From: Salinibacter pepae
GTDB taxonomy: Bacteria > Bacteroidota > Rhodothermia > Rhodothermales > Salinibacteraceae
Reading direction: 5' to 3'
Assembly: GCF_947077775.1 (NCBI RefSeq)
Contig: NZ_CAMTTE010000001.1
Coordinates: forward strand, 3,066,501-3,130,500
DNA length: 64,000 nucleotides
The translations under genes were made by a program, and so were the position numbers. Shown piece by piece: positions 10,619 to 54,228 of the stretch. The notes below the pieces were generated by a model that was given only the letters and a program-made list of their open reading frames with translations, made no database searches and was not told the origin of the DNA. Position 1 is the stretch's first letter. Each line of letters begins with the position of its first letter.

Positions 10619-10849
10619 ATGGACCCCGCTGCTCTTGCATACCTCGCCGCCGGTCTCGGAGCCGGCATTTCTGCCGTTGGCGCCGCGATCGGAATTGGCC
10701 GGCTGGCCAGCTCCTCGATGGACGGGGCGGCTCGCCAGCCCGAAGCTGCCGGAGACATTCGAGGCCTAATGATTGTCTCTGCCGGTCTTATTGAGGGTGT
10801 GGCCCTGTTTGCCCTCATTATTTGCCTCCTCCTCGTTCTCTTCGTCTAA
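10619..10849 (+). CDS. atpE: F1F0 ATP synthase subunit c
   Basis: 76-residue hairpin of two membrane helices joined by the conserved polar loop ARQPEAAGDIRG; multiple copies form the rotor ring. The ion-binding carboxylate is the Glu in GLIEGVALF (near residue 60). Sodium-type rings carry Gln in helix 1 and Ser/Thr after the Glu; here those positions are Ile (GIGRL) and Gly-Val, so the ring looks proton-coupled. ATG at 10619. Confidence 0.96.
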   Translation: MDPAALAYLAAGLGAGISAVGAAIGIGRLASSSMDGAARQPEAAGDIRGLMIVSAGLIEGVALFALIICLLLVLFV

Positions 10850-11157
10850 CGGCCGTGCCGAAACGGAACGAGAGGGCGCACGTGCAGTCCACGCTGCCTC
10901 GGGTCGGGCACGATTAGAGACTCGACGGTGCGAGGGGCAGCGTTGCAAGCGGCCCGCCCCGCCCAGAAGAACGTGGCCGTCCGCCGCACTCTTCCCGCCA
11001 CAACGGTTCGGGGATGCGTCTCCCGATGCCACGGCCGAGGCCCACGAGGCGCCCCGAGGCCCCCGCCCGGGGCGGCGGCCCGTTGTCGGCCTCCATCGTG
11101 TTGCCCTCGCGCCCGCGCCCTGCAGTTAAATTTCGTCGTCCGGTTTGTCCTTTGCCT
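10850..11157. other. 308-bp gap between atpE and atpF
   Basis: GC-rich spacer inside the atp string. It contains several short frames but none with a start site or family resemblance, and no strong intrinsic terminator on the plus strand, so transcription may run through. GC-rich inverted segments (around 11044-11085, GGCGCCCCGAGGCC-type) could fold in the mRNA. Confidence 0.5.
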
Positions 11158-11667
11158 ATGACCGCCCTGTTTGCCCAGAGCCTCGTCACCCCATCGGTGG
11201 GGCTCATTTTCTGGAAAACCGTCGCGTTCCTGATCTTCCTCTACATCCTCTACCGATTCGGGTGGGGGCCGATCACCGAGTCGCTGGAGGAGCGAGAGGA
11301 GGAGATTGAGCACTCCATCCAGCGCGCCGAAGAGGCCCTCGAAGAGGCCAAGGCGATTCAAGCGGAGAACGAAAAGGCCCGCCGCGAGGCAGAGCAGAAG
11401 GCCCAGCAGATCCTTCGGGAGGCTCGCGACTCGGCCGAAGAGCTCCGCGAGGAGGAGAAGGCCAAAACGCGCCGTGAGATCCAGGAGATGAAGGAGCAGG
11501 CCCAGGCCGAAATCGAGCGTGAGAAGCAGGCGGCCCTCCAGGAGCTCCGTGATGAGGTGGCCGACCTCGCCATCGAGGCGGCTCAGAAAATCATCGAGAA
11601 CGACTTGGACGCCGACCGGCACCGGCAGCTCGTGGACGACGCCCTCGACGACTTCCCGACGAATTAG
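11158..11667 (+). CDS. atpF: F1F0 ATP synthase subunit b
   Basis: 169-residue peripheral-stalk subunit: one N-terminal membrane helix (about 16-33, IFWKTVAFLIFLYILYRF) followed by the typical GPI turn and a long, highly charged coiled coil (about 40-150) that reaches the delta subunit on F1. The frame continues upstream to 11014, but ATG at 11158 gives the normal length and places the membrane helix at the N-terminus. It is followed 57 bp later by atpH. Confidence 0.95.
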   Translation: MTALFAQSLVTPSVGLIFWKTVAFLIFLYILYRFGWGPITESLEEREEEIEHSIQRAEEALEEAKAIQAENEKARREAEQKAQQILREARDSAEELREEEKAKTRREIQEMKEQAQAEIEREKQAALQELRDEVADLAIEAAQKIIENDLDADRHRQLVDDALDDFPTN

Positions 11668-49962: not shown

Positions 49963-50763
49963 TCAACCGCCAAGCTGAGCAAACAGGTCGAGGAAGGCCT
50001 CCGGCCCGATTCCCGACACGCCCGTCCGGATGCGGAGGGCACACCACAGGTCGAGCAGCATCATCTGGGCGGCGTGGATGGGGACGGCGATCCAGAAGGA
50101 GCGGCAGCGCCAGACGAGGGCGCCCAGCGCGATGCCGCCCACGACGGAGAGCAGCGCCTCCGGCCACGGCTTCGCGATGTGGAGGGCGGCGAAGGGGAGG
50201 GCCTGCACAAAAATGGCCGACAGGCCGAAGGTGGGCGCGGTGCCGAAGAGCACGAACCCGCGCCACAGGTACTCCCACCCGACCCAGTAGAAGAGAAACA
50301 GGGCCTCGTAGATGAAGAACACGGCCCAGTCTCGGGTCGCCGGCTGGTAGTGCGGGTACTGCTCCTGGAACGCCGCGCCGTCGGAGAGCACCCACGTTCC
50401 CACCGCCACGACCGGCAGGTAGAGGGCAGCGACGACGCTCGCAAAGCGCCATTCGCCCAGGCCCAGGCCGATCTCGTCCAGGGTGGACGCAAAGAATGCC
50501 CGGAGGGCTGCCGCCGGCACCACGAAGCCGAGCAGGCCCTGCATCCCGAACCACCAGCCCCAGGTCGCCAGTCCCTGCCAGCTTCGAGGAATGAATCCAG
50601 CAAGGTGGGTGCGGAAGAGCCCGCGGTCTCCCAGAATGACCTGGAGGACGACGAGCACCGCCGCGCCCGTGAGGACGAACGTCGTTTGCCCGTCGAGGGA
50701 CGCGGCGGCCCGGCGGAGGCGACGCCACTCGGTCCGGAGGCGGGCGGCCAGTGCGTGCAGCAT
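49963..50763 (-). CDS. CPBP family intramembrane protease
   Basis: 266-residue polytopic protein of the CPBP/Rce1-like (ABI) family. The catalytic Glu-Arg motif appears as GWEYLWRGFVL (about 165-175; the first Glu of EExxxR is Trp), followed by FAALHI and HAAQMMLLD. About seven membrane segments. Such proteins cleave prenyl-type or peptide substrates in the membrane or help bacteriocin immunity; specificity is unknown. ATG at 50763; it follows the S9-type gene by 90 bp on the same strand. Confidence 0.82.
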   Translation of the reverse strand: MLHALAARLRTEWRRLRRAAASLDGQTTFVLTGAAVLVVLQVILGDRGLFRTHLAGFIPRSWQGLATWGWWFGMQGLLGFVVPAAALRAFFASTLDEIGLGLGEWRFASVVAALYLPVVAVGTWVLSDGAAFQEQYPHYQPATRDWAVFFIYEALFLFYWVGWEYLWRGFVLFGTAPTFGLSAIFVQALPFAALHIAKPWPEALLSVVGGIALGALVWRCRSFWIAVPIHAAQMMLLDLWCALRIRTGVSGIGPEAFLDLFAQLGG

Positions 50764-50852: not shown

Positions 50853-53582
50853 TCAGGGCCGAGGGGGCGATTGAGAAGCGGTCGGGGGCGCAGGGGGCTC
50901 CAGGAAGCGCGCAAGGAACTCGTAGGTCCGCACGAGACGATCCAGGCGCTGGCGTGGAGAGGCCGAGGCAGACATGTCGTGTCCCACCCCAGGGTACCGC
51001 ACGTACTCGACGGGCCGATCCAGGATCTTGAGGCGTTTGTACAGGCGCTCGCCCTGAGACGGCCCCATACGTCGGTCGGCCCCGCCCTGCATCAGCAAAA
51101 GCGGCGTGCGGATCCGGTGCGCGTACGTGAGCGGCGAGTTGCGGTGAAGGGCGGCCCAGGGCGTCTGGGCGGTCGAGTCGGGAAACGGAAGCCGGGAGGA
51201 GAGGACAGAGTCGCCGAGCGAACGCGGCGGAACGCCGTCCCAGGGATATCCGCCAAACTCTGCCGGCACGAGGCGCCACGCACGGCCGCCCCCCAGCAGG
51301 GCCGGGAGGTCGTACACGCCGTTGAGCGCAACGGCCGCGGCGAATCGGTTCGTTCGGCCGAGAATCCAGGCAGTCAGGGTGCCGCCGTACCCGGTGCCAC
51401 CGAGGGCCACCTGGGTGGAGTCCGTCCAGGACAGCGCCGCCGCGGAATCGGCGAGCGCGAGAAGATCGCGGGCAGGACCGGGGCCCCAGTTTTTGTCGTT
51501 GGCGCGCCGGAAGGCCGTCCCGAAGCCCGCTGAGCCCCGTGGAAACCCCTCGACGAGCCCCAGGCCGCGCCCCGCGAGGTACTGCCGCTCGAACCACGCC
51601 TCCGGCGTATAGGGGGCACTCAACGCCGGAGGTCCGCCACGCGCCTGCACGAACAGGGGATGCCGGAGCGAGTCCGCGAAGGCGGCCGGGCGCGTCACCC
51701 ATCCGGTGACGGCGAGGCTGTCGTGGTAGACCGTCATGCGGTCGGGGGGGGCCACGTGTCGGCGAGACAACCACTCGGCGTTGGGGGTGGCGAGGGGGCG
51801 CTCGTTGTTGAAGCTGACGGTATTGGCGTAGAGGGCCGAGGGCGTGGTGGGGTCCGTTGAGGCGTATACGGCGGTCGCGTCGGTCACGTCGAACGAGTGT
51901 ATGGCCCGTGCGGCCGACGTCAGTTGTTCAGCCTCGGCGGGCCGAACCAGGGTCGAGTCGAGCGTGAACGTATTTCGCGATGTGGCCCGGTCGGTAGGCA
52001 GGGTCGGACTTGGGGCCTGGGGAGCCCCCTCGGTCGTGTCCTGGGCGAAGGGGGTGAAGCGGAAGAGGGGGCGTCCGCCCTCCGAGGGGGCCGTCGTGTA
52101 CAGGTACCAGCCATCGGGGGCCCACGTGACCGACGTCACGTCGCGGTCGAGGGCGCTCGTGAGAATGCGGGGCTGGGAGCGGCCATCCAGTGCAAAAAGC
52201 CCGATCTCGGCGGGGGCGTCGCTCGATGGGGCGAGCGATTCGAGCCGGAAGGCCACCGTACTGCCGTCGGTCGTGATGGAGGGAGACGTCAGGGCATGGT
52301 TCTCAATGCGGAGCAGGCGACGGAGCCGAGGGGTGTTCAGATCGGCCACGTACAGGGTGCGCCGACGGACGCGATCGGGCGATTCGGTCGTGGCGGGCGT
52401 CCCGCTTACGACGACCTGCTCGCCCCCGGGCAGCCAGTCGGCCTGGCCGTAGGAGCGGTAGCCGCCCGTCAAGAGGCGAGGCGTGGGGCGCGGCGGGCGC
52501 CCGGAGCGGATGCCCGCGGGAAGGTCCACCACGTAATGATGGCGGTAGGCCGGCGTGGGCCGGAGCTGCCGCTCGCCCTGCAGCTCGAGTCGGGAGGAGA
52601 CGAGGGCCGTCTCGGAACGGCGGTTCTGGTGCATCCATCGCCGGACCTGTGCGAGGGTGCCGTCCGGGGCGGCGGCGGTGTCGGGCTGCACGGCAACCGT
52701 CGTCGTATCGGGACGGAGCCGAAACCGGTCAAAGACTGCCCGTAGGCTATCGGAGGAGAGCGTCGCGAGGCGACGCACGGGCGGGGCGGAGAGGGTGTCC
52801 GGGAGGGACGACTGCTGCGGAACCTGGAGGGTGTCGGTCGTGTCCGGGGGCGTCTGAGGCCGGCCGTCCGCGTCCACCGTGAGGGTATCGACGGGACGAA
52901 GCGTCCGGTCGTGTCGGAGGACGAGAAGGGTGTCGGGCGGAGGGGTGCGAATGGTATCCGACGCCGTGCGGCCGGGCCGTTCAGTAGGGGGACGGCGGGC
53001 TGTCTGGCGCCGAACGGCCGGCTCGGGGACGCGGCTCGCGAAGAGCAGTCGCTCTCCATCCGGGCCCCACTGGGGGGCCTGGGCCCCGTGCGGCGTATCG
53101 GTCAGCCGATACGGAACGCCTCCGTTGAGAGGAATCACGAACACCTGCGGCGTGCCGTCTACGGGGCGGACGAAGGCAAGGTGTGTGCCGTCGGGGTGCC
53201 AGGCGGGCTCGCGGATGTCGTGTTCGTCTTGGAACAGCAGGCGCGGATCGTCCCGGCCGCTCGTCCGGGCCACGTACAGCCGGGCACGAGGCGCAGGGGC
53301 CGGGCCGGGTGAGAGGCGACGCACCGTGTAGGCCACGGACCGCCCGCGGGGGGACAGGGCGACCTCCGTCACCTCCCGCATCCGGTACAGGTCCCGGGCC
53401 TGGACGGGCCGCTCCCCGTCCGAGGCGACTTGTGCAGATGCCGTCGTGGGAAGAAGGAGGCCCGTGAGGAGACCCACCAGAAGGACAGGGACGGTCGTGC
53501 GGCGGACGCTAGGGGGATGCGGTGACGCCGAGCCGGAACAGATTTGCATCAACGCCAGGATTGATTTGTCCACGAAAGCCAT
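50853..53582 (-). CDS. S9 prolyl-oligopeptidase-fold protein lacking the nucleophile Ser
   Basis: 909-residue exported protein. A signal peptide lies near residues 27-50 (ends TTASAQ). Residues about 55-600 are a propeller with TolB/WD-like blades (SPRGRSVAYTVRR, WHPDGTHLAFVR, WGPDGERLLFASR, WAPDGWYLYTTAP). The C-terminal alpha/beta-hydrolase domain keeps the Asp (QGGADRRMGPSQG) and His (PGVGHDMSAS), but the nucleophile elbow reads GGTGYGG: Gly (codon 51390-51392, residue 731) sits where GxSYGG has Ser. The middle also has an insert with Asp/Thr/Pro-rich disorder. ATG at 53582 or 53549; either start overlaps the PagL-like gene's end. Confidence 0.85.
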   Translation of the reverse strand: MAFVDKSILALMQICSGSASPHPPSVRRTTVPVLLVGLLTGLLLPTTASAQVASDGERPVQARDLYRMREVTEVALSPRGRSVAYTVRRLSPGPAPAPRARLYVARTSGRDDPRLLFQDEHDIREPAWHPDGTHLAFVRPVDGTPQVFVIPLNGGVPYRLTDTPHGAQAPQWGPDGERLLFASRVPEPAVRRQTARRPPTERPGRTASDTIRTPPPDTLLVLRHDRTLRPVDTLTVDADGRPQTPPDTTDTLQVPQQSSLPDTLSAPPVRRLATLSSDSLRAVFDRFRLRPDTTTVAVQPDTAAAPDGTLAQVRRWMHQNRRSETALVSSRLELQGERQLRPTPAYRHHYVVDLPAGIRSGRPPRPTPRLLTGGYRSYGQADWLPGGEQVVVSGTPATTESPDRVRRRTLYVADLNTPRLRRLLRIENHALTSPSITTDGSTVAFRLESLAPSSDAPAEIGLFALDGRSQPRILTSALDRDVTSVTWAPDGWYLYTTAPSEGGRPLFRFTPFAQDTTEGAPQAPSPTLPTDRATSRNTFTLDSTLVRPAEAEQLTSAARAIHSFDVTDATAVYASTDPTTPSALYANTVSFNNERPLATPNAEWLSRRHVAPPDRMTVYHDSLAVTGWVTRPAAFADSLRHPLFVQARGGPPALSAPYTPEAWFERQYLAGRGLGLVEGFPRGSAGFGTAFRRANDKNWGPGPARDLLALADSAAALSWTDSTQVALGGTGYGGTLTAWILGRTNRFAAAVALNGVYDLPALLGGGRAWRLVPAEFGGYPWDGVPPRSLGDSVLSSRLPFPDSTAQTPWAALHRNSPLTYAHRIRTPLLLMQGGADRRMGPSQGERLYKRLKILDRPVEYVRYPGVGHDMSASASPRQRLDRLVRTYEFLARFLEPPAPPTASQSPPRP

Positions 53583-54228
53583 TCGACAGGTGGTGGTAGC
53601 GGTAGCCAGCAGTGAGAGTCAGGGTGGGGGTGAGGACCACACGGACGCCCGCCCCCAGATCGAACATAAAGTTCAGCGACCGCCCCAGCGCATTGGGCAC
53701 GGAGCGGTCGAAAAACGCGAGGCCGGTGCTTCCCGCGACGAACGGTTGGACGCGTTTGTGGGGCCGGTAGGTGAGGCGTAGGCCCACCGGGCGGACCCCA
53801 ACGCCGACCGCGGTTCGATCCTGGGGACGAGAGGACGACATCCGCGCCGGACTCGATTCGTCGGATGGGAGGGCGGGAAGGGCGCCAGACGGGATCGACA
53901 GGAAGAGAACGGGAAGCAGGTCTGCCGTGTACGTGAGGGTCGGGCCGTCGAAACTCGGAGAGGGGGAGGCCGGCGCGAGGAGGCGGTGGTAGCGCAGCCC
54001 CACCAGTCCCACTCGGGCGCGCCGGATGTTTCCGATGAGGCGTCCGGTCGCGAACGAACCGGCGGCCCATACGCCGACGGCATTCGTAGAGGGGGCGAGG
54101 CTGTCCGCAGGCTGGCCCGCGCAGGGAACAACGACACCGAGGCTGACAAGTACAGTGACGACGATGAGGCGAGCGTGCAAAATCGGGAGCAAGTTCGTCC
54201 GTAGCAGCGCGTGAGGGCGGGGGCGCAT
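53509..54228 (-). CDS. PagL-like lipid A 3-O-deacylase/acyloxyacyl hydrolase family protein
   Basis: 239-residue exported beta-barrel-like protein. Signal about 18-38 (ends VPCAGQ). The C-terminal stretch GYRYHHLSNGFRGQINPGVDAN matches the PagL signature HxSN followed by NPG; the His and Ser are in HHLSN, and the PagL Glu position is not obvious. It would deacylate lipid A in the outer membrane. A Ser/Pro-rich loop at about 120-150 is atypical. ATG at 54228 was chosen; the frame is open to 54297. It overlaps the start of the S9-type gene and is divergent from the alpha/beta hydrolase gene. Confidence 0.75.
   Translation of the reverse strand: MRPRPHALLRTNLLPILHARLIVVTVLVSLGVVVPCAGQPADSLAPSTNAVGVWAAGSFATGRLIGNIRRARVGLVGLRYHRLLAPASPSPSFDGPTLTYTADLLPVLFLSIPSGALPALPSDESSPARMSSSRPQDRTAVGVGVRPVGLRLTYRPHKRVQPFVAGSTGLAFFDRSVPNALGRSLNFMFDLGAGVRVVLTPTLTLTAGYRYHHLSNGFRGQINPGVDANLFRLGVTASP

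Follow-up and report, generated by a model that had tools for sequence, protein, structure and literature searches.

What is left for an S9 peptidase to do when the nucleophile of its catalytic triad has been replaced? The question arises from one gene, here called pseudo-S9, in a stretch of 64,000 nucleotides from Salinibacter pepae, the whole of which we call the window. The initial annotation had described the open reading frame at 50853-53582 on the minus strand as an S9 protein with Gly at the nucleophile place, and both a Pfam match and gap-free alignments to PDB structures bear this out.

The gene and its catalytic residues

The gene and the residues relevant to catalysis are located as follows.

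50853..53549, minus strand: pseudo-S9 gene from its preferred start, 898 aa
51390..51392, minus strand: codon GGG of Gly731, at the S9 nucleophile (Ser) position
51393..51395, minus strand: codon ACC of Thr730, preceding the nucleophile position
51639..51641, minus strand: Arg648 of RGGP, a His in 53/54 Ser-bearing tree rows (98%)
51075..51077, minus strand: triad Asp836, present in the window, lost in L013, L015, L016 and L017
50979..50981, minus strand: triad His868, present in the window, lost in L015, L016 and L017

The longest reading frame, 50853-53582 on the minus strand, has 909 aa. The ATG at 53549 is a likelier start than 53582, because an ATG recurs at the same place in seven of the nine other complete genus loci (L009-L013, L017, L018) and in L020 outside the genus; it is absent from L015 and L016 in the genus, and from L024. 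The protein consists of a beta-propeller and an alpha/beta-hydrolase domain, with Pfam matches to PD40 and to Peptidase_S9 (7.7e-31, 107.7 bits against a curated cut-off of 22.6). Judged by eye, its N-terminus resembles a signal peptide, having a hydrophobic stretch and the end ASAQ. At 115.7 bits it stays below the 900-bit equivalog cut-off of NCBIfam DPP5 (NF053518). A long insert rich in Pro, Thr and Asp occupies residues about 190-330 of the propeller; it occurs in the genus and in some sister genera, is mostly missing from the rows of genera g7 and g9, and is in part modelled at low confidence.

An AlphaFold2 model built from 48 alignment rows reached a pLDDT of 79.5 and a pTM of 0.76. 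In this prediction strand 709-719 and helix 721-730 lie on either side of Gly720 (=731), in the manner of a nucleophile elbow. The best structural matches of the model in VIA-align are S9 enzymes (8wt1 with Z 36.4 and an rmsd of 2.8 A over 617 residues; 5yzo with Z 33.5), and the predicted fold is a propeller joined to an alpha/beta-hydrolase. For the Salinivenus iranica protein, which lacks Ser, Asp and His, the fold is still predicted (pLDDT 76.3), helped by the active relatives in the alignment.

The elbow reads GGTGYGG and the codon at 51390-51392 is GGG, just as first annotated. Aligned without gaps to the GGSYGG of 8wt1 and 5yzm, the elbow places Gly731 under the Ser, and the nucleophile of the GxSxGG motif of active S9 peptidases is thereby missing. 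The preceding residue 730 is Gly in Ser-bearing rows; the genus has Thr, Arg, Gln or His there. The other two triad residues of an active S9 peptidase, which the annotation had also reported as remaining, are in place as Asp836 and His868. The HGGP typical of this S9 subfamily is changed to RGGP, whose Arg648 falls opposite a Tyr, that of YGGP, in the genome's own DPP4-like protein; this Tyr we take to be the Tyr547 site of DPP4.

Loss of the serine across the genus

The genus set comprised 13 genomes, including Salinibacter altiplanensis (G001), Salinivenus iranica (G003) and Salinivenus lutea (G004). Matches at 1e-60 were obtained in 11; G008 has an N-terminal piece only, which required a looser cut-off; G009, 62% complete, gave no match. 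These 11 genomes supply 12 copies of the elbow, two of them contig pieces from G010. The Ser is absent from all 12, replaced by Gly in 11 and by Ala in one (L017) with a degraded elbow. Among the copies that reach the other triad positions, the Asp is kept in 7/11 and lost in 4/11, the His kept in 8/11 and lost in 3/11; L017 lacks all three triad residues together with the elbow motif. The rest of the family was represented by 14 genomes, of which 12 matched at 1e-40 and 11 of these extend through the elbow. Ser and Asp are present without exception in the 11, as is the His in all ten that extend to it. Whether Gly is fixed in orthologues, a check proposed by the initial annotation, thus has a divided answer: it prevails within the genus, save for the one Ala, and outside it the Ser stands.

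Nucleophile codons are GGG, GGC or GGA in the genus (GCG in L017) versus TCC or TCG in the other family rows, so that the change from Ser to Gly took at least two substitutions. An error of sequencing or assembly as the source of the Gly, a reading for which we found no point in favour, has a negligible probability: the loss recurs in 12 copies out of 11 genomes, under differing Gly codons (GGG, GGC, GGA), and a base error is excluded. That an active paralogue from this subfamily has replaced the gene was considered and rejected: across the 13 genus genomes, some incomplete, the sole second match at E<=1e-60 is a contig piece in G010, which is likewise without Ser. Three other S9 proteins read in the window's genome (L002, L003, L007) are distant and have the Ser.

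A wider contig scan with two short conserved patterns returned 61 loci, which are therefore a sample, and 58 were long enough for alignment. Seven loci have no Ser (L038-L043, L063), and their contigs and coordinates identify them as records of genus genomes already in the set. The remaining 51 bear Ser and come from Bacteroidota, Planctomycetota, Opitutae and Acidobacteriota among others; 49 have the elbow GGSYAG or GGSYGG, the exceptions (L095, L098) being poor or distant rows. Every Ser-bearing row that reaches the His has one, followed mostly by Asp, Glu or Asn. Among viral sequences, 37 pattern matches yielded no confirmed copy.

A tree of 65 rows (54 with Ser, 11 without) was calculated in IQ-TREE under LG+G4 by quick search after removal of four trait columns, with SH-aLRT as its only support measure and no bootstrap. 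A single branch (SH-aLRT 100) splits off the 11 Ser-less rows, so one change suffices; the program warned of unusual composition in L015, L016, L017 and L024, among others. The sister row L024, from genus g2, has the complete triad of Ser, Asp and His together with RGGP; at its Arg, the other 53 Ser-bearing rows have His. In the Ser-less rows the same site is Arg in ten and His in L017 (HGAP). Alignment and tree together show the loss of the Ser to be a genus-wide character that arose once, in the ancestor that Salinibacter shares with Salinivenus, here counted in the genus. In the simplest order the starting point was an S9 peptidase, active and of the acylaminoacyl-peptidase or S9-carboxypeptidase type, in which HGGP became RGGP in the common ancestor with g2; the nucleophile then disappeared in the genus ancestor and Asp and/or His later in three lineages, Asp in L013, Asp and His in L015/L016, and Asp and His in L017. 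Columns lost genus-wide amount to 16/112 in the hydrolase domain versus 1/38 in the propeller (Fisher p 0.07), so a concentration in the hydrolase is no more than suggested.

The retention of Asp836 and His868 in the window's protein and its close relatives leaves room for an enzyme working with another nucleophile, for instance Thr730 or a water activated by Asp and His. We consider this very improbable. The initial annotation's suggestion of another Ser or Thr finds no support near the elbow, because residue 730 varies in the genus (T, R, Q or H) and some lineages have lost the Asp and His too; HGGP is likewise gone, as are other conserved residues.

Conserved neighbours and rate of change

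Two neighbouring genes serve as context and, in one case, as a yardstick.

53509..54219, minus strand: PagL-like outer-membrane protein gene (PF09411, 5.1e-12), start not fixed
49963..50763, minus strand: CPBP (Rce1-like) membrane protease gene, downstream, with motifs WEYLWRG / FAALH / HAAQM

The 3' end of the PagL-like gene lies over the pseudo-S9 start by 41 nt (53509-53549); this overlap, together with the recurrent ATG described above, suggests translational coupling of the two genes. All 10 of the genus loci that are complete, the window's among them, have the order PagL-S9-CPBP in one direction. From the S9 stop to the first candidate CPBP start there are 58-109 nt in eight of the nine other complete genus loci; in L018 the candidates lie at -4, 62 and 104. 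CPBP also stands directly 3' of an active S9 gene in 12 Rhodothermus/Rhodothermales loci (L049-L052, L054-L060, L062), and among the 10 measured, four overlap by 4 nt, while in the other six a candidate start lies no more than 14 nt away. In the sister locus L044 the CPBP gene is 1.2 kb from S9, and none was found in about 6-8 kb of downstream sequence in L046, L047, L048 and L097. The pairing is therefore ancient, with breaks in several sister genera, unless it was lost and regained; a CPBP partner shared by every orthologue did not hold up. In g2 and g8, as in the genus, the PagL-like gene adjoins S9; in g3 (L045) it is 1.9 kb off. The clustering first noted with PagL-like and CPBP genes is therefore kept in the genus, whereas CPBP is away from S9 in several sister genera. 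A conserved neighbourhood is no demonstration of a functional link, and the envelope role that the annotation derived from it is best put as a role the protein may have.

Several details of the neighbours are recorded here in their own right. WEYLWRG is found in 28/30 CPBP rows (some genomes twice), both exceptions belonging to one genome; where the window's CPBP has WEY, EE is presumably usual in the family. The best NCBIfam match of this protein is archaeomyxosortase MrtA, below its cut-off. In L063 (about 10,700-11,500; the genome of L018) the CPBP gene beside pseudo-S9 is short of about 20 residues in frame, EYLWR among them, which could be an assembly error since L063 is a MAG. The window's PagL-like protein has HHLSNG, a motif we assume to be tied to PagL catalysis; 19/21 locus rows share it (several genomes counted twice), and HHTSNG replaces it in L024/L044, one genome.

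The reading frame has been kept. Ten complete frames occur in ten genus genomes, with identities down to 48%. Nei-Gojobori counts per domain gave hydrolase dN/dS values of 0.156, 0.188, 0.177 and 0.164 for the window against L009, L010, L011 and L012, 0.186 for L009-L010, 0.210 for L010-L011 and 0.320 for L013-L018; seven of the eight genus pairs computed thus lie at 0.156-0.320. The eighth, the Salinivenus pair L015-L016, has 0.646 at a dS of 0.048, with which drift is compatible. For the window and L009, at a dS of about 0.04, the first propeller part has 0.669 and the insert 1.28. Active pairs have hydrolase values of 0.079, 0.063 and 0.183, and as the last (L028-L029) is as high as in the genus, dN/dS alone cannot separate the genus from active orthologues. 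Between the window and L038, S9 has 0.247, PagL 0.260 and the other five genes 0.074-0.192; S9 ranks second highest of seven genes in both pairs for which all seven were compared.

With the CPBP distance as yardstick, in pairs that are not independent, the median hydrolase ratio is 2.07 in 44 genus pairs versus 0.43 in 54 active-orthologue pairs, and the propeller ratio 1.92 versus 1.09. In active orthologues no part evolves more slowly than the hydrolase domain; in the genus this domain is about five times faster relative to CPBP. The additional constraint on the catalytic domain is gone, yet in most of the genus some constraint persists.

A slow decay, in which activity was lost, selection merely relaxed and the protein is disappearing, would fit the stepwise loss of HGGP, Ser and then Asp/His, the faster hydrolase domain, the Salinivenus ratio and the excess of S9 over most of its neighbours. 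The ten complete frames at such divergence, the low ratios of the other seven pairs and the gene order held in every complete genus locus speak against it, and we judge it unlikely.

Possible roles and known pseudo-peptidases

In our assessment pseudo-S9 is probably a secreted, non-catalytic pseudo-peptidase that lost its Ser at the level of the ancestor and whose shell is kept for a binding or scaffold role. The fold and frame are kept and a catalytic residue is lost and fixed in the clade, as in a pseudoenzyme; that the protein is inactive we infer. The possibility of a pseudo-enzyme, raised at the outset, gains strong support at the sequence level from the elbow and triad losses, the single-change tree and the rate shift. 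As the gene has been kept intact since the loss, it probably has a job other than cutting peptides; without a nucleophile there would be no acyl-enzyme, and the propeller-hydrolase shell would hence be kept for a non-catalytic role. The likeliest ligand would be a peptide or protein of the periplasm or outer membrane, possibly one encoded by the neighbouring CPBP or PagL-like gene; the peptide binding suggested in the initial annotation is thus a possible role. The Salinivenus ratio, the window-L009 values for propeller and insert, the losses in L017 and the high rank of S9 among its neighbours count against this explanation, no genus-specific invariant pocket emerged, and the separation of CPBP from S9 in several sister genera weakens the idea of CPBP as partner.

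The closest solved structures by sequence and fold are the Geobacillus S9 carboxypeptidase (8wt1) and the Deinococcus S9 peptidase (5yzm/5yzn/5yzo), which in wild-type form have GGSYGG, whereas the window's protein has Gly and the long propeller insert. Its active orthologues by tree, Longimonas halophila L047 (L022 standing in) and the Rhodothermus MAGs L051 and L052, have Ser, Asp, His and HGGP, unlike the window's protein; L051 and L052 share the adjacent CPBP gene with it, and in Longimonas none was found beside S9. Bacterial pseudo-orthocaspases, in the part of the source available, are also protease homologues without catalytic residues, but are unrelated and of the cysteine type (PMC6426788). 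A survey from 2008 described 42 inactive serine-protease homologues from 91 prokaryote genomes in five families; those named in the accessible part include S1, S8 and S12, and S9 is not among them (PMC2605481). Within the literature covered, searches for a Salinibacter S9 family peptidase or pseudoenzyme, and for S9-family pseudoenzymes in bacteria, found nothing relevant, and the S9 pseudo-peptidases named in the portions of the cited literature at hand are mammalian DPP6 and DPP10.

According to the sections consulted, human DPP10 (DPPY) is an S9B pseudo-peptidase that modulates Kv4 channels; its elbow is GKGYGG, with Gly651 for the Ser and Lys for the preceding Trp, Asp568 stands at the equivalent of DPP4 Tyr547, and an engineered Gly-to-Ser change did not restore activity (PMC4350108). 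As far as that account goes, the likeness to the Salinibacter protein comprises the propeller and hydrolase fold, the Ser-to-Gly change and a changed preceding residue (a Gly in the case of the Salinibacter elbow G[TRQH]GYG), and extends to a third site, where Arg648 of RGGP replaces His. In fly, DPP10 is described in the corresponding excerpt as both binding Kv4 and digesting peptides, so a binding role can coexist with catalysis (PMC4873792). A bacterial counterpart of DPP10, acting on the CPBP protease (or the PagL-like protein) as a substrate adaptor or a regulator, would have arisen from the old S9-CPBP pair by changes at the same three sites. We regard this as a tentative idea of low probability, weakened by the separation of CPBP from S9 in several sister genera.

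Descent from a DPP4-type S9B peptidase was not found: pseudo-S9 is nested among Ser-bearing GGSYAG orthologues in a tree that held no S9B row, and its profile is much closer to 8wt1 (1.3e-130) than to DPP6 (3.8e-18). This nesting among Ser-bearing orthologues makes the loss separate from that of DPP10, from which the Salinibacter protein further differs in being bacterial and in having relatives that also lack Asp and His. A lineage-wide bacterial S9 pseudo-peptidase is thus a new case of a known kind. Its path is visible from active relatives through an intermediate sister genus to lineages that kept the protein but are without one, two or three of the triad residues. Such a natural series lends itself to the question of what a propeller-hydrolase shell does without catalysis.
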